7,561 bases of DNA from Acidobacteriaceae bacterium (GTDB taxonomy: Bacteria; Acidobacteriota; Terriglobia; Terriglobales; Acidobacteriaceae), in contig PLSH01000022.1 of assembly GCA_003165095.1 (NCBI GenBank), positions 1-7,561 of the forward strand. The letters are read 5' to 3'. Positions 1-6,669 of this stretch are shown piece by piece (position 1 is the stretch's first letter; every line of letters starts with the position of its first letter). A program made the position numbers and the translations under genes. A model generated the notes under the pieces. That model was given only the letters and a program-made list of their open reading frames with translations. It was not told the origin of the DNA and ran no database searches.

Positions 1-2027
1 GCGCGCTGAATCAGCGCATTCCGCTCGTTGACCGCCGCTTGTGCCTTGCGCTCAAAGAACTCCCGCGGTTCATGGCGCGAAAACAGCCATAAACTCAGCG
101 AGGGCAACCCCAGCGCGCCCGCCGCGATGCGAACAGCTTCGGCCTCGTCGAGATCGACGATCAGGCTCAAATGCTCTGACTGCGGGTTCGCTGCCAGTTG
201 TTCAAGCTCCTGAGCTGCGGCCGCCAGATGTTCGCCATACAACCTCACCGTGCGCACGGAATGCAGCTCGATTCCCAGTCCTGCCATGATCTCCGGCAGC
301 CTGGCAACCTCTTTCCGGTTCCAGTTCTTCTGCTCCTCGGTGAGCTGGTTCCAGTCTTCCAGGTGCGGATTGTGGTGCTGGGTGGCGCGCCGCGCCGAGC
401 CGTGACGGCTGTCGATGAGCCGCCGCTCCATGGTGTAGCGGCGGTGTTCGAGCTGGGCCAGCAACTCGATCTGCTCCGCAGTCAGTACGGCCACAGCCGG
501 CGGCTTCACATCATGCACCAAGTGAAGGCCGGCCAGCTCCATCAGCAGCGGCGTGTGGTCCGCGCGCCAGCGATTCGACATCTGCATGTATTCCGGCAGT
601 TCATGCCAGGCAACATTGGCCTGCGGATTGATCTGGTCTTGCGAGCGATGCCGGTAATCGTCGTGCAGGGCCTGCGCAAAAGCGTCCAGCCGGGAGCCGA
701 ACAACACGTCCGGGCTGAGCGTTTCTTCGAGCGTTCCAAAAATCTGCAGCCGGTCGCCGAAGCGCGCGATGCTCTCAATATCGCTCACCAGCGCGCCCAA
801 TTGGAGATAGTACTCGAGGCGCACGTAGATGGGCACGTGGAGGTAACCGCCGCGGTCGAGCAGCGATCGCATCTCGAGCGCGGCGCACAGGCTCACATCG
901 TCGTTTCCCAGCGCCAGCGCAACGCCCAGCAGCGGCCCTGCCGATTCCAGCGTTTTTTCAATCACCTGCCTCAGGTCCGGCGAGCCCGCCGTCACCGATG
1001 CTGCCACAAACTCGACCGAGGCCATCTCCGCGGCAGCCGGATCGGTAATCGAAAATCTCTCTCTTGACCCGTCCGCCTTTTGATCGAACACGAGTATCTT
1101 CAGGGTCTGGTTCAGAGCCACAGGCGAAGAGCGGATCAGCTCGATCGCGATCTCCCGGCCATAGGCGCCAAATCCGATCACCACAAAGGTCCGCGCTGCA
1201 AACTCAGGGCTGGGCGGCAGATGCAGGCGCTTGATCAACATGCGCGCCGCGTTTGTAAATGGATTGAACAGCCGCAGATCCACATCGGCTGAGCCCAGCG
1301 AAGCCTTGGTGCTGGCCATCAATCTCTTGTGCATCCAGTCGTTCCGCATCTGCGCCAGCACCTGGAGCCGGCGTGACTCGAAGCTGAACCGCTTGCGGTG
1401 GATGGCTTTGATCTGCAGCGCGATGTCCATGTTTTCACTATCCGACCCGGTGGTCACGACCACCGTTTGCGCATGCCGGATGCCGGAGGCGAGCAGCACC
1501 TGCGGGTTCTTGGCGTCGCCCTGCACCACCGGGACTCCGCTGTTCTCGCAGGTTGCCGCGCCCGGCGATTCGCTCATCAGGTCGATGGCCACGACGTGAT
1601 GACCCGCGCTGCGCAGGTTCTGAACCACCTGCATGCCCACGTCGCCGATGCCACAGACGATGGTGTGATTGGTCTTGTGGCGCGCCAGCGCGGTGCGGAT
1701 ATTCTTCCTCACTCCGCTGAGAAACAGTTGTACCGCCGACAGCAGCGCCACGCCCGGCACCGCCAGTTGCGCGATCACCAGTTGCCAGGGGTCTTTGCCC
1801 GGCTGAAACAGGTCGTAGAGCCGCAGCAGCCCGATGGAGGAGATAAGACACCGCAGCGCCTCAATCCAGGTAAAAGGACGGATCGGATTCAGCGGCCCAA
1901 AGCAGTTTGGAACGCAGCACGCTGAAGCCGTGTAGTTGCTTCCGGCGATTGCATATCCCCAGAAGCCCAATCCAAGAGCGAGCACGGCGAAGACCACAAG
2001 AAACATATTTTCGAAGCGCTTATACAT
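1..2027 (-). CDS. Membrane-anchored double TrkA-N (RCK-like) NAD-binding protein with RyR domain, 3' end outside window
   Basis: An uninterrupted frame of 675 codons runs from an ATG at 2027 off the left edge with no stop, so the C-terminus is missing. Residues 9-29 and about 82-104 are hydrophobic and probably span the inner membrane; residues 54-72 are weaker. A first Rossmann domain (about 120-240) starts at HTIVCGIGDVG, has an acidic residue ending beta-2 (VVAIDL) and the GDA motif (170-172) typical of TrkA-N domains. A second (about 278-400) starts at FVVIGFGAYG with VFDQ at the end of beta-2. Both glycine motifs fit NAD(H) binding. Residues about 515-587 match an RyR domain: LAQLEHRRYTMERR, then a conserved NW and a closing LPEIMAGLGIEL. 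Residues 590-675 are unassigned. No TVGYGD-like selectivity filter is visible, so it is not an evident potassium channel; it may regulate transport or sense nucleotides. The start is preceded by GGAGG at 2031-2035, only 3 bases away; Met8 is an alternative. It lies 31 bases downstream of the SLOG-SLATT gene, so co-transcription is likely. Confidence 0.85.
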   Translation of the reverse strand, partial: MYKRFENMFLVVFAVLALGLGFWGYAIAGSNYTASACCVPNCFGPLNPIRPFTWIEALRCLISSIGLLRLYDLFQPGKDPWQLVIAQLAVPGVALLSAVQLFLSGVRKNIRTALARHKTNHTIVCGIGDVGMQVVQNLRSAGHHVVAIDLMSESPGAATCENSGVPVVQGDAKNPQVLLASGIRHAQTVVVTTGSDSENMDIALQIKAIHRKRFSFESRRLQVLAQMRNDWMHKRLMASTKASLGSADVDLRLFNPFTNAARMLIKRLHLPPSPEFAARTFVVIGFGAYGREIAIELIRSSPVALNQTLKILVFDQKADGSRERFSITDPAAAEMASVEFVAASVTAGSPDLRQVIEKTLESAGPLLGVALALGNDDVSLCAALEMRSLLDRGGYLHVPIYVRLEYYLQLGALVSDIESIARFGDRLQIFGTLEETLSPDVLFGSRLDAFAQALHDDYRHRSQDQINPQANVAWHELPEYMQMSNRWRADHTPLLMELAGLHLVHDVKPPAVAVLTAEQIELLAQLEHRRYTMERRLIDSRHGSARRATQHHNPHLEDWNQLTEEQKNWNRKEVARLPEIMAGLGIELHSVRTVRLYGEHLAAAAQELEQLAANPQSEHLSLIVDLDEAEAVRIAAGALGLPSLSLWLFSRHEPREFFERKAQAAVNERNALIQR

Positions 2028-2058
2028 GTGCCTCCATCGGAAAAACGCCTGCGGCGGC
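2028..2058 (-). promoter_or_regulatory. Short intergenic spacer with ribosome binding site for the NAD-binding/RyR gene
   Basis: Only 31 bases separate the TGA of the SLOG-SLATT gene (2059-2061) from the next ATG (2027). The spacer holds GGAGG at 2031-2035 on the minus strand, with 3 bases to the ATG, which is tight but usable. No terminator hairpin is visible in it. This arrangement supports transcription of both genes as one unit. Confidence 0.55.
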
Positions 2059-3858
2059 TCAGCCGGGAAGGTTCAACGAGCGATACCGGAAGACAACGCT
2101 CCAGTCATTCGTTTCGGAGATCATGATCTCCGCAATTTTCTCTGCAACGATGCGCAGGTTCGCAAAGCTCTCGTTCCCCGAGGAAAGCGCCTTTTTCAGA
2201 TCGTTTTCCCGCAGCGACGCAAACTCACGCCGCATGGCAAGGGACCGGTCGGCGCTGCGCGCGAATTCTCCCTGGTTCGCAATACCGTAAAATGCTGCGC
2301 CGAATGCCGGTGGCGCGGTTGCCAGCACCAGCAGCCACGCCGCCTCGCGGCCCACCCATACATGGTAGATGCAGGCCAGCAGGGTGATCCCGAACAGCCA
2401 TGTGCCTGCCTGATGCAGGTGATGGTTCAGCTTTTCCATCTTTTCATGATTGCCCTCGTGATAAACGATCTGCCCTTGGAGGATGTTGCCGATCAGTTCT
2501 CCGATCGATGCAAGATACGGCTGCTCTACTCTGCCCGGAGCGATTCCGATGTCGCGCGCGATCGAGTGAAACATGCCGTCAACCCAGGCTTGACTGGGAT
2601 CGGAGCCGGAGTGCGCCACGTGGCGGGGCGTGGGCAGAGAACAACCTAGCGGGGCCAGGAAGCAGTATTGGCGCAGCCGCTCTCCCAACTGCCGGTAATT
2701 CAACCAGCGCTCATGCCACCTTCGATGCCGGCCCCAATACGTAATCGAGAGGATGGCGGCAATGAGCACAAACTCGACCACGGAAGGCTTGCGGTTCATT
2801 TTTGGAATGTGAAGACTGTCACTGAGCGGGCCCAGCAATGCCACGAACACAGCCAGCGCACTGAGCAGATTCGTGGCCAGGGAACCGCTGCGGAGAAGCC
2901 CTCCATAATAGGTTGACAATCCGTCAGCCCATGCGTAATGAGGGCAAAGCTTGTCGAGCAGGTAGCCCTCGGTGGCCCGGGGCAGCTCAGGTTTGCGCGG
3001 CATTGTCTTCTGCCAGTCGTCGCGCGCGGTGGTCTCGAAGTCGGCGATGAACAGCGAACCTATCTTCAGTTTTCCTTTGGCCACCAGATCGCGAAAGAAC
3101 GTAAACGGCCGGCCTCCATTGAAGCGCGGATGCTTCTCGGCGAAGTAAGCGTGGCTCAGGTCGAAGGCTTTCTTGTCCTGCTTCGGCGTTTCAGGCCGCC
3201 GGGCAGCGAATAACGACGGAAGATTGTCGAGGGGCCGCAAGCTCCGATCTCCGTTCTCGTCCGCCTGCAGAATTTGCGGCTCCGCGGCCTCTGAAGCATG
3301 CAGCCAGACAATCGGCACAGCCTGCTCCAGCGCCTCGCCGACCATCTGCGCCGTGCCGCCTCTCCCTGCCGCCGGCGCTCCGTCCCAGATCACAATCAAG
3401 AGGTCGGATTGTTCAATTACCATTTGCCCCACGCGCTCGTAGGCAATCGCCTCCGCACTGCGCCGGCCATCGGCCTCAAATACAGAGGACGCCCGGGCCA
3501 GCAATGCGTTGAACTCATCCTTCGATGCGGCGGTTTTGAAGTCGCGGCTGTACTCGCCGGCATGAAAGGGCAGCGGGCACTGCAAGTCCGCGCCCACGGC
3601 CAGGCCGGCCGCGGCCACAATGCGATCCGCCCCCTCCGCAAGCGGCGAGATGATGCGAAGAAGGGGTGCTCCCGGCGCATGAAGCAGAGGATCGTTGGCT
3701 TCAGCCGCCAACTGGGAGATCGCGGTCAGAACCCGTTCGCACTGTCGCGGCAGGCCAACCGCTATCTCCGGCGATAAACGGTTGGGCCGATGACCGATCA
3801 CCCCGATTTGAACCACCTGGCGGGGCCGCGGCGGCGATGATGACTTAGGGGCGATCAT
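2059..3858 (-). CDS. SLOG-domain protein with C-terminal SLATT-like transmembrane modules
   Basis: 599 aa. Residues 16-190 form a SLOG/LOG/DprA-like Rossmannoid domain: VQIGVIGHR at 16-24, SPLAEGADRIVAAAGLAVGAD at 71-91 (the glycine/alanine-rich LAEGAD element of the superfamily), SDLLIVIWDG at 151-160, GRGGTAQMVGEAL at 165-177 and IVWLHA. SLOG domains bind or process nucleotides or derivatives. After a charged linker comes YAWADGLSTYYGGLLRSG, then four hydrophobic helices at about 327-345, 359-376, 484-501 and 505-524. Each pair is followed by a charged helix (HRRWHERWLNYRQLGERLR; QGEFARSADRSLAMRREFA). That 2TM-plus-helix pattern resembles SLATT, a proposed pore or membrane-perturbing effector. 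The frame is open upstream to an ATG at 4122, but those 88 residues look non-coding and homology begins near residue 14, so the ATG at 3858 is preferred. The only AGGAG (3878-3882) is 19 bases away, leaving the start moderately uncertain. Exact family names need a profile search. Confidence 0.85.
   Translation of the reverse strand: MIAPKSSSPPRPRQVVQIGVIGHRPNRLSPEIAVGLPRQCERVLTAISQLAAEANDPLLHAPGAPLLRIISPLAEGADRIVAAAGLAVGADLQCPLPFHAGEYSRDFKTAASKDEFNALLARASSVFEADGRRSAEAIAYERVGQMVIEQSDLLIVIWDGAPAAGRGGTAQMVGEALEQAVPIVWLHASEAAEPQILQADENGDRSLRPLDNLPSLFAARRPETPKQDKKAFDLSHAYFAEKHPRFNGGRPFTFFRDLVAKGKLKIGSLFIADFETTARDDWQKTMPRKPELPRATEGYLLDKLCPHYAWADGLSTYYGGLLRSGSLATNLLSALAVFVALLGPLSDSLHIPKMNRKPSVVEFVLIAAILSITYWGRHRRWHERWLNYRQLGERLRQYCFLAPLGCSLPTPRHVAHSGSDPSQAWVDGMFHSIARDIGIAPGRVEQPYLASIGELIGNILQGQIVYHEGNHEKMEKLNHHLHQAGTWLFGITLLACIYHVWVGREAAWLLVLATAPPAFGAAFYGIANQGEFARSADRSLAMRREFASLRENDLKKALSSGNESFANLRIVAEKIAEIMISETNDWSVVFRYRSLNLPG
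2115..2132. repeat. Perfect 18-bp palindrome near the 3' end of the SLOG-SLATT gene
   Basis: The bases CGGAGATCATGATCTCCG read identically on both strands, with no spacer and no mismatch. It encodes the AEIMISE part of the SLOG-SLATT protein (around residues 576-582), about 90 bases before the start of the downstream gene. It could be a chance consequence of the codons or a protein-binding site inside the operon. No function can be assigned from sequence alone. Confidence 0.5.
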
Positions 3859-4743: not shown

Positions 4744-6669
4744 ATGAGAGGTGTCTTTTGGAATGCCATGACGCTGGCGGCAATCGCCGCCGGTATGTGT
4801 ACTGCAGGACATGCGCAGACGGCCGCAGCCGCTCCAACGCAAACGGCTGCTGCCAAGCCGGTGCTGGTAGCTAACTCCGATCCGCCCGCGGATCCAAATA
4901 CAAAAGCTACGGTGGCCACCGGGACATCGAATGCCGCCCAGCCGGAGACGCATCTCACCGTGGAGCAGGAGATTGCGCTGCTCAAGAACCGCATCGAGCA
5001 ATTGGAAACAGAAGTAAAGGAAAACAGTGCGGCCGCTGTTGAAAGCCGGAACGATGCCGCCGCGCTGACTGCCGCTGAAAAAGAACTGGTGAGCGCAAAC
5101 GGCGCGGCAATGCTGCATTCCGCAACTCCGGATGCATCGGCGCCAGGCGCGGGGCAAACCGTGAACCCGCAGGCCGTTGCCCCAGCCGCGCCGCCGACCC
5201 CGGAGATCAGCGCGGAGAGAACCACCAAGGATGCGCCATTTCCCGGCGACTGGACCTGGCTTAACAGCAACGGGCACCAGACCGACAGCCCCATGGCCAC
5301 CAAGTACTTCACGCCGGAGTTCCGCGCCGACGCAAACTACACGCTGGACATGAACCACCCGGACGATGACTCACTGGGCGGATCGACGGAAACTTTTCGT
5401 TCCGACGAATTCCAACTGGAGCAAGTCAGCATCGGCGGCGACATCCGCATCGACAACGTGCGCGGGCGAATTCTCTTCATGGATGGCATGTTCGCGACCA
5501 CGACCCCGCGTAATGACGGCAGCGTCAATCGCGGCCAGTGGGATCTGGCCGACGCCTACAAATACATCTCCGAGGGGTGGGGCGGCTATCACTGGGATGT
5601 TGCCCACGGCCTGAACGTGGATGCAGGCATCTTTGTTTCTTACATCGGCCTGTTCAGCTACTATAACTTCGACAACTGGACCTACCAGCCCTCGTTTGTC
5701 TCCTCTAACACGCCGTGGTTCTTCAACGGTCTTCGCATCCAGTATTTTCCGACAACCAAGCTCAAGATCGAGCCGTGGATTATCAACGGCTGGCAATCCT
5801 ATGGCCGCTACAACGGCCACGGCGGGTTGGGCGGACAAATTCTATGGCGTCCCAATCCGAACACGGACATTGTTTTCAACGACTATGGAATGGGCGAGGA
5901 CGACGCCGGCTATCCCGGACGCTCGCGTGTCCACGCCGACTACAGTGTGCAGCAAAGGTTCTACAACAATCCAAAGAAATACTTGGATCAGATCGCCTGG
6001 ACGATCACCGGCGATGCCGGCTGCGAATACGGCGGCGGTCCCGCGGCCGGATACTACAACCCGAAGGGCCTCTCGCCTGAAATGGGTACAGCCGACACTT
6101 ACTCTGGCGGCGTGAACTGCCACAGCAGCAAGGATGGCAGGCCCAAGCAGATGTTCATCGGTTGGATGAGCTATTTGCGATTCTGGTGGGACAAGAATCT
6201 CTTCGCGATGACGCTGGGCGGCGGCGAGATGAACAATCCCGGCCGCTACCTGACATTGCTGCCTCCCATCGACGGCGCCACGGCTGTCACCGGCACCCCG
6301 TACTATACGGAGAATGCCGGCGACCGCGCTCAAATGCACGATGGCACCATCACGCTCGATTACATGCCCAGCCAGTTCATTACGTTCCGTCTTGAGTCCG
6401 GCTACCGTTACTCCGACACGCCATACTGGACCGGCCGCGGCGGCATCACGCCTCCCGGCGGGAACAACGGATCTCCGTCCCAGTATGCCTGCGCCAGCGG
6501 CTCTCCAGCCGGAGTGGGCTACTTGCCGAACTTGCCGGGGTTTGCCACCGGTCTGGCCCAGGCAGAATATTCCTGCGGCGGCGCGGGCGCGGGCTCCAGC
6601 GCGATCTGGTGGCCCGATCTGCGCACCAACCAGACCGTCGTCACGGGCGCGATCATGGTGAGGTTCTAA
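4744..6669 (+). CDS. Outer-membrane beta-barrel porin, OmpL-like/BBP2-type, with N-terminal coiled coil
   Basis: 641 aa. The ATG at 4744 is chosen over the in-frame ATG at 4675 because AGAGG (4734-4738) sits 5 bases before it and it begins a clean signal peptide: a hydrophobic stretch (residues 9-18) and a probable cleavage after AGHA (24). The mature N-terminus is Ala/Pro/Thr-rich, with a short coiled coil at about 71-98 (VEQEIALLKNRIEQLETEV), as in porins that reach toward the cell wall. Residues from about 165 on alternate aromatic and polar strands (for example FTPEFRADANYTL, LKIEPWIINGW, FITFRLESGYRY) and the chain ends in the strand TGAIMVRF with a terminal Phe, the usual signal for barrel insertion. 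Overall this resembles the putative beta-barrel porin-2 family; the substrate is unknown. The mature barrel region has four cysteines (427, 459, 583, 611) in loop-like stretches, which could form disulfides. A strong hairpin follows the stop. Confidence 0.85.
   Translation: MRGVFWNAMTLAAIAAGMCTAGHAQTAAAAPTQTAAAKPVLVANSDPPADPNTKATVATGTSNAAQPETHLTVEQEIALLKNRIEQLETEVKENSAAAVESRNDAAALTAAEKELVSANGAAMLHSATPDASAPGAGQTVNPQAVAPAAPPTPEISAERTTKDAPFPGDWTWLNSNGHQTDSPMATKYFTPEFRADANYTLDMNHPDDDSLGGSTETFRSDEFQLEQVSIGGDIRIDNVRGRILFMDGMFATTTPRNDGSVNRGQWDLADAYKYISEGWGGYHWDVAHGLNVDAGIFVSYIGLFSYYNFDNWTYQPSFVSSNTPWFFNGLRIQYFPTTKLKIEPWIINGWQSYGRYNGHGGLGGQILWRPNPNTDIVFNDYGMGEDDAGYPGRSRVHADYSVQQRFYNNPKKYLDQIAWTITGDAGCEYGGGPAAGYYNPKGLSPEMGTADTYSGGVNCHSSKDGRPKQMFIGWMSYLRFWWDKNLFAMTLGGGEMNNPGRYLTLLPPIDGATAVTGTPYYTENAGDRAQMHDGTITLDYMPSQFITFRLESGYRYSDTPYWTGRGGITPPGGNNGSPSQYACASGSPAGVGYLPNLPGFATGLAQAEYSCGGAGAGSSAIWWPDLRTNQTVVTGAIMVRF

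Follow-up and report, generated by a model that had tools for sequence, protein, structure and literature searches.

A pair of adjacent genes from a soil bacterium of the Acidobacteriaceae was found to encode a protein in which a SLOG domain is fused to SLATT-type membrane helices (gene 1) and a channel-like membrane protein carrying two TrkA-N/RCK domains and a divergent RyR domain (gene 2). We tentatively read this pair, as a plausible rather than a probable interpretation, as the effector arm, acting at the membrane, of a Thoeris-like immune module based on TIR and NAD to which an RCK-RyR channel-like sensor would have been added. The operon-like linkage of the two genes is strict in their own clade, scattered elsewhere and patchy across genomes, and across the SLOG-SLATT family TIR is a more widely found partner than TrkA-N/RyR.

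Both genes lie on the minus strand of the window, that is, the whole 7,561-nt stretch of DNA analysed (Table 1), and the domains, helices, spacing and shared strand that an earlier note had described were all confirmed. The gap between the genes contains a GGAGG on the minus strand (2035-2031). By comparison with the database entry P0121 (686 aa, 100% identity over 99%), which starts seven residues downstream of the gene 2 start, about 18 aa at the C-terminal end of the gene 2 product fall outside the window. The nearest named homologues of both proteins belong to Terracidiphilus and other Acidobacteriaceae, and 263 protein database matches to the gene 1 product, its own entry included, were obtained at E≤1e-3. 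A porin-like outer-membrane protein gene (4744-6669, +; BBP2, 2.2e-33) is probably unrelated to the pair. A tRNA search of the window returned none, and an Rfam scan of it returned no family at gathering score.

Table 1. Positions of the two genes and their parts in the window
Feature	Position	Strand	Basis or remark
Gene 1, SLOG-SLATT membrane protein gene	2059..3858	-	599 aa, ATG at 3858, stop at 2059
SLOG domain, aa 9-225	3184..3834	-	Rossmann-like; motifs GxxGHR, SPLAEGAD, GGT
SLATT-type helical membrane part, aa 294-590	2089..2979	-	sub-cut-off profile matches, predicted helices, hydropathy
Gap between gene 1 and gene 2	2028..2058	-	31 nt
Gene 2, TrkA-N/RyR membrane protein gene	3..2027	-	675 aa present; runs off base 1
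Channel-like membrane part	1677..2003	-	TM helix, short inner helix, TM helix; no TxGYG filter
First TrkA-N/RCK domain	1215..1670	-	GxGxxG Rossmann; TrkA_N 2.2e-21
Second RCK-like Rossmann domain	693..1190	-	GFGAYG
RyR domain, divergent	264..473	-	PF02026 4.1e-5, below cut-off; alignment to RyDEP
Small conserved alpha/beta C-terminal domain after RyR, no name	3..269	-	predicted secondary structure, conservation

The AlphaFold2 model of the gene 1 product (pLDDT 91.5) has the Rossmann-like fold of the SLOG superfamily, and a fold search with the predicted SLOG structure placed YpsA and DprA near and EcThsA, BcThsA and TRPM2 at weaker similarity, with LOG folds also among the matches. Residues G19, G22, S71, G167, G168 and T169 were invariant in all 67 aligned rows, and the conserved glycines together with the GGT motif form what we take to be the nucleotide site. 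In LOG-type phosphoribohydrolases the catalytic Glu sits in PGGxGTxxE; here 66 of the 67 rows carry I, M, T, V or S at the equivalent site (GT+3), the window having M. In the SLATT part, hydropathy on a crude scale and the AlphaFold2 helices outlined hydrophobic helices near aa 327-345, 358-376, 484-502 and 509-527. Neither SLATT profile exceeded its cut-off, NCBIfam SLATT_1 matching aa 299-399 at 1.5e-6 (28.2 bits vs 41) and DUF4231 matching at 0.009 (16.9 bits vs 24.7); because listed homologues of this protein carry PF14015/PF18181, its helical part is likely a divergent SLATT member. The SLOG and SLATT-type parts proposed in the earlier note were thereby recovered, the former by fold and motifs and the latter by sub-cut-off profiles and helices. 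A possible tandem-SLATT organisation was considered: the helical halves showed no sequence homology (hhalign probability 0.9%), although the second half of a divergent relative (L092) gave a weak Pfam SLATT_1 match (0.0035). A sequence-profile search of the PDB with the SLOG-SLATT protein returned no match at E≤1.

For gene 2, an AlphaFold2 model was obtained on P0121 (pLDDT 87.5), and in a fold search its predicted RCK tandem and TM helices resembled GsuK, MthK being also a match and no RyR structure standing among the matches listed. The protein shares with GsuK and MthK the combination of TM helices and Rossmann gating domains, in tandem as in GsuK, that marks RCK-gated K+ channels, and NAD- and ADP-bound forms of GsuK are found among PDB titles. 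It differs from them in its added RyR and C-terminal domains and in its missing filter: no TVGYG-type K+ selectivity filter was found in the gene 2 family, in which the pattern [TS]xG[YFL]G occurred within the first 130 aa of a single row out of 50, that of P0207, at residue 17 inside TM1. Both TrkA-N/RCK domains and the RyR domain are present as had been noticed earlier, the window RyR scoring 24.2 bits against a PF02026 gathering score of 27.4; close relatives, including P0156 and P0162, are listed with PF02026. The proposed link to animal calcium-channel families stands as a distant domain homology, but the channel-like part itself resembles the GsuK and MthK K+ channels, without their filter.

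As described in the available text of PMC13232231 (bioRxiv 2026), the phage RyR protein RyDEP cuts 2′/3′cADPR with H75 and D117, its adenine being braced by W78 and its phosphates contacted by H100, and six of eight tested phage RyR homologues bind 2′/3′cADPR without cutting it, that is, sequester it. With RyDEP (DyoEdafos gp78) as reference, the pocket was aligned over 50 rows, the window plus 49 relatives: H75 was kept in 47 rows and an aromatic residue at the W78 position in 45, the phosphate histidine H100 was kept in 12 and absent in 38, and D117 occurred in none, Asn taking its place in 42. The residues of the window at these four positions are H, Y, N and N, so that the catalytic dyad reads H and N. 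A signal-cleaving enzyme of the RyDEP type was rejected on the 0/50 count for D117. Judged from this alignment, the window's clade has a partly eroded pocket and the window family should not cleave such signals by the RyDEP route, while binding of an ADP-ribose-type ligand by the window RyR is possible. Apart from its replaced D117 and mostly absent H100, the family, which shares H75 and the aromatic residue with RyDEP and the phage RyR sponges (PF02026; PMC13232231), differs from them in being encoded by the host and in its fusion to a channel-like protein. Most RyR proteins found close to other SLOG-SLATT genes come nearer to the intact RyDEP residue set: those at L043 and L028 have all four pocket residues, those at L020 and L096 are without H100, that at L102 has F at W78 and is without H100, and that at L013 is without H100 and D117.

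These residues bear on an alternative, which we judge unlikely, that the RyR protein is an off-switch, serving as a sponge for basal ADP-ribose-class signal or holding SLOG-SLATT closed, and so preventing self-damage. Such a role would suit a family that has no catalytic Asp and keeps H75 and the aromatic residue, would be in line with the phage proteins, one of which acts as an enzyme whereas binding without cleavage was seen for six of the eight homologues tested (PMC13232231, available text), and would fit the tight pairing in the clade; however, the phosphate histidine is absent in 38 of the 50 rows, and a sponge would not need gene 2's own membrane part and RCK pair. If the pair is instead the effector arm of a TIR-based module, the RyR of protein 2 would bind an ADP-ribose-like ligand without cutting it.

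A genome-contig scan with gene 1 recovered 383 relatives, the best 80 of which were taken as the surveyed loci; genes in these loci are our own ORF picks (≥150 aa in the near/far count), not annotations. Seven neighbour genes served as seeds for the local TIR profile, which went through one iteration, and L013, L020, L043 and L028 themselves were included in building the RyR profile. By these profiles, whose counts lean towards such genes because they were seeded from the survey's own loci, a TIR gene lay at most two genes from SLOG-SLATT in 37 of the best 80 of 383 relatives, TIR accounting for 37 of 279 near (≤2) genes vs 10 of 548 farther ones (Fisher p 9.5e-11) and RyR for 11 of 279 vs 1 of 548 (p 4.7e-5), with 7 of these 11 belonging to the window's clade. 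In the same best 80 of 383, RyR was found within two genes in 4 of the 73 non-clade loci (L013, L020, L028 and L043), and 36 of the 80 had neither TIR nor RyR within that distance. Because the loci lack independence, with groups of Sphingomonas and Marinicaulis among them, cluster counts were used as well: at 50% identity these 80 loci form 37 clusters, 17 with TIR, 5 with RyR and 19 with either. By Pfam only, TIR_2 was detected in 14 of the 33 genes that come directly downstream of SLOG-SLATT on its own strand and no more than about 250 bp away, a set that leaves out L001-L007 and a 152-aa ORF at L059.

The TIR partners are varied, comprising TIR-DUF4189 (L008), TIR-WD40 (L022), SIR2-TIR (L014), TIR-PDZ (L020) and TIR-TPR (L062) proteins, and the partner at L023 is an FGE-sulfatase with a weak N-terminal TIR match (4.4e-5). 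In Marinicaulis and its kin (L023, L029-L032, L035, L039, L047 and L053) the gene after SLOG-SLATT falls into one cluster (c4), of which this FGE-sulfatase/weak-TIR protein is the examined member; FGE-sulfatase occurs in 9 of the 33 downstream neighbours. Non-TIR neighbours include NAD synthase (L033), aminotransferase (L016), MoeA (L034) and histidine kinase (L072). In two Dadabacteria loci (L008:1860-3710 and L012:8126-9976) an additional, divergent SLOG-SLATT-like gene lies immediately upstream of the main one; the TIR-DUF4189 gene follows in L008 and a gene of the same cluster in L012. A RelA/SpoT-LSDAT(SLOG, weak)-RyR fusion lies near SLOG-SLATT at L028:6365-8896. DUF4062-AAA/NACHT-TPR proteins stand beside SLOG-SLATT in L009 and two genes off in L013. 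DUF4062 is described as a TIR-like NADase (Swarozyc) in the available text of PMC13174449, from which these loci differ in the fusion to NACHT/AAA and TPR, and DUF4062 is absent from the window. The guess in the earlier note that an NAD- or ADP-ribose-derived nucleotide is involved gained strength from the TIR neighbours and from the binding of ADP-ribose signals by phage RyR (PMC13232231, available text).

RyR, SLOG-SLATT and TIR or TIR-like genes were found together in at least six loci. These are L020 (SLOG-SLATT, TIR, TrkA-N/RyR), L043 (RyR and TIR on the strand opposite SLOG-SLATT), L013 (DUF4062 protein, TrkA-N/RyR, SLOG-SLATT), L092 (RyR protein, SLOG-SLATT, TIR and a sub-threshold TIR, on a single strand throughout), and L002 and L004 of the window's clade, where an opposite-strand TIR gene comes after gene 2 (Pfam 9e-15 and 4e-14). 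Together with L001, which has a TIR gene about 5 kb upstream, 3 of the 7 clade loci contain a TIR gene; no TIR was found in the fetched stretch of the other four, nor among the five window proteins scanned. TIR_2 proteins occur in all 7 clade genomes (2-11 each), which discriminates nothing because 72 of the 77 genomes searched have TIR_2 too. That TrkA-N/RyR sits where TIR does in other loci, that SLOG enzymes exist and that LOG folds are among the fold matches would be compatible with a self-contained two-protein system, in which SLOG makes or trims a nucleotide and the TrkA-N/RyR channel-like protein, replacing TIR, is the true effector. We consider this improbable, given that 66 of 67 rows have I, M, T, V or S at the LOG catalytic position and that a TIR gene is still present in 3 of the 7 clade loci. 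In the scheme that we prefer, in which the pair acts downstream of a TIR-type enzyme, many lineages would have the gene for this enzyme next to that of the effector, and in much of the window's clade it would probably be located at another place in the genome.

Gene 2 directly follows gene 1 in all seven Acidobacteriaceae clade loci (L001-L007) that stand among the top matches of the contig scan. Among 80 genus genomes, gene 2 was found in 8 (E≤1e-60) and a close gene 1 in 7, the two being adjacent in all 7, and five further genus genomes have divergent gene-1 relatives only; in G278 gene 2 occurs but gene 1 does not, and an SDR and an EAL/HDOD gene come next. Of five divergent gene-1 loci, L092 has RyR and TIR, L093 has TIR-WD40 and L096 has an RyR-STAND gene, neither RyR nor TIR being the immediate neighbour in L094 (a 4.4-kb contig) and L095. 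With at most five candidates scored per genome, gene 2 at 1e-60 was found in 200 sampled family genomes in G004 itself only, and with at most three, a relative at 1e-30 was found in 9 of 396 phylum genomes, absences that may reflect gaps, as completeness is not given for the genomes. SLOG-SLATT was nearby in none of 10 TrkA-N/RyR loci outside the genus. In the protein database, comparing P0001-P0080 (79 sizes) with P0121-P0230 (110), 19 of 79 SLOG-SLATT entries share their source-sequence size with a TrkA-N/RyR entry, which was taken as the same contig. The pairing of the two genes thus holds for the clade, with 7/7 loci adjacent, but not beyond it, where RyR is near 4 of 73 other SLOG-SLATT loci (best 80 of 383) and the reverse is found in 0 of 10. 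Among those 10 loci outside the genus, a TrkA-N/RyR gene lies beside a TIR gene and near a RelA/SpoT-LSDAT(SLOG, weak)-RyR fusion (L118:8205-15006), and at L122:8668-12933 (-) a STAND-NTPase-RyR gene is followed by TrkA-N/RyR about 3 nt past its stop, with no SLOG-SLATT found nearby.

The flanks of the clade loci look largely housekeeping, except for the TIR genes and two strong MzaA-model matches. PADLOC models gave no match to either pair protein, and the idea of a defence island was set aside; in the flank set (54 proteins of L001-L007 from genes ≥180 aa, minus the pair and a ~1,400-aa gene) the matches were TIR/ThsB, DRT-labelled models, MzaA, PDC-S66 and a few singles. DRT-labelled models matched 3 flank proteins, the same set having 3 DnaG-type primases by Pfam, PDC-S66 matched 3 of 54, and MzaA matched 2 of 54 (best 9.9e-75). 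Phage cargo was likewise rejected, viral contigs giving 7 matches to the SLOG part only and no TrkA-N/RyR relative, as was plasmid cargo, a distant gene 1 relative being found on 3 plasmid records at E≤1e-10. Largely housekeeping flanks, the RCK/GsuK-like architecture and TrkA-N/RyR relatives outside the genus without SLOG-SLATT would also be expected of a housekeeping ion or osmotic regulator, in which NAD(H)/ADP-responsive K+ flux is served by SLOG-SLATT as an accessory membrane subunit with no immune role. This appears quite unlikely to us, as the patchy occurrence (8 of the 80 genus genomes and 1 of the 200 family genomes sampled) is unlike a core K+ system, the filter is absent, and relatives keep the company of TIR, STAND, NACHT, RelA/SpoT and LSDAT.

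In all seven clade loci the next gene after gene 2 on its strand is one of 1,322-1,487 aa, the ~1,400-aa gene mentioned above (e.g. L005:13910-17944, +); at L002 and L004 the TIR gene of the opposite strand stands between the two, and in the window the ~1,400-aa gene would fall left of base 1. Eight of the 80 genus genomes have it, the seven with the pair among them. By eye it has a signal peptide, UshA-like 5′-nucleotidase motifs and a barrel-like C-terminus; Pfam 5_nucleotid_C reached only 0.039, and a PDB sequence-profile search gave no match at E≤1. It is possibly a third component of the module.

Burroughs, Aravind and colleagues reportedly predicted SLOG-TIR and SLATT conflict systems in 2015; in our literature search, outside which that work lay and where a prior mention is possible, the pair of SLOG-SLATT and TrkA-N/RyR was not found described, nor was a host-side function of bacterial RyR domains, and the available parts of PMC7016017 and PMC8195603 hold nothing on bacterial RyR. 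Already in print, in the available texts, are the prediction of SLATT as an effector regulated by ADPr derivatives (PMC9503650) and the naming of SLOG-TIR as immune systems (PMC7824862). The pair resembles these conflict systems in its SLATT as a nucleotide-gated membrane effector and in the TIR association (PMC9503650, PMC7159879, PMC7824862), and differs in that neither "RyR" nor "TrkA" appears in the main texts of PMC9503650 and PMC7159879. Thoeris effectors are of two kinds, SIR2-SLOG and TM-macro ThsA, in the available text of PMC11204291, and the likeness lies in the TIR-type partner in related loci, the SLOG ligand domain and a membrane effector as in TM-macro ThsA. By analogy, the SLOG-SLATT protein seems to combine the two kinds, with a SLOG sensor placed on a membrane effector. 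Here, however, SLOG is fused to SLATT helices rather than to SIR2, no macro domain was found in the pair, and there is an extra TrkA-N/RyR protein. The pair was not classed as Thoeris because neither a TIR (ThsB) gene in the window nor a SIR2 or macro match of the ThsA types was found.

Because TIR or TIR-like genes adjoin many relatives, an ADP-ribose-class trigger and membrane permeabilisation are likely. In the proposed mechanism, a TIR-type enzyme would make an ADP-ribose-class nucleotide upon phage infection, and the SLOG of protein 1 would bind it, whereupon the attached SLATT helices would cluster or open and the membrane be permeabilised. In this possible division of labour, the TrkA-N/RyR protein is most readily seen as a further, channel-like membrane partner that responds to nucleotides, whose RCK pair would read NAD(H)/ADP and which would set the response threshold or add its own ion flux. 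We counted in favour of this mechanism the SLOG and GsuK-like folds, the TIR neighbours, the three-part loci, the clade adjacency, the RyR pocket and the literature, and against it the absence of TIR from the window and from 4 of 7 clade loci, the H100 loss, the absent filter, the lack of a PADLOC match, the gene 2 relatives without SLOG-SLATT, G278, the housekeeping-like flanks and the 36 of 80 loci (best 80 of 383) without TIR or RyR. The overall interpretation of the earlier note, a nucleotide-responsive pair altering membrane permeability or ion flux under stress or infection, is therefore supported in part.

With parts that look suited to sensing NAD-like nucleotides and with relatives often found next to NAD-cutting enzymes of immune type, the pair may be the membrane-damaging end of an anti-virus alarm. 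That RyR shares loci with SLOG sensors, SLATT effectors and TIR genes suggests that a host side of the phage-RyR contest exists, and a testable question is opened as to whether ADP-ribose signals are bound by the RCK-RyR proteins of bacteria or control their gating. The finding also touches on the reason for which domains with bacterial relatives occur in TRPM channels (SLOG) and in ryanodine receptors (RyR). A bolder proposal, which we regard as doubtful though conceivable, is a new type of immune module in which one ADP-ribose-class signal drives both a SLOG-SLATT pore and an RCK channel-like protein, with RyR as the host-side sensor. If this were true, bacterial RyR domains would be receptors for the very nucleotides destroyed or sequestered by phage RyR proteins, and the nucleotide control of animal RyR and TRPM channels would gain a plausible ancestral logic.
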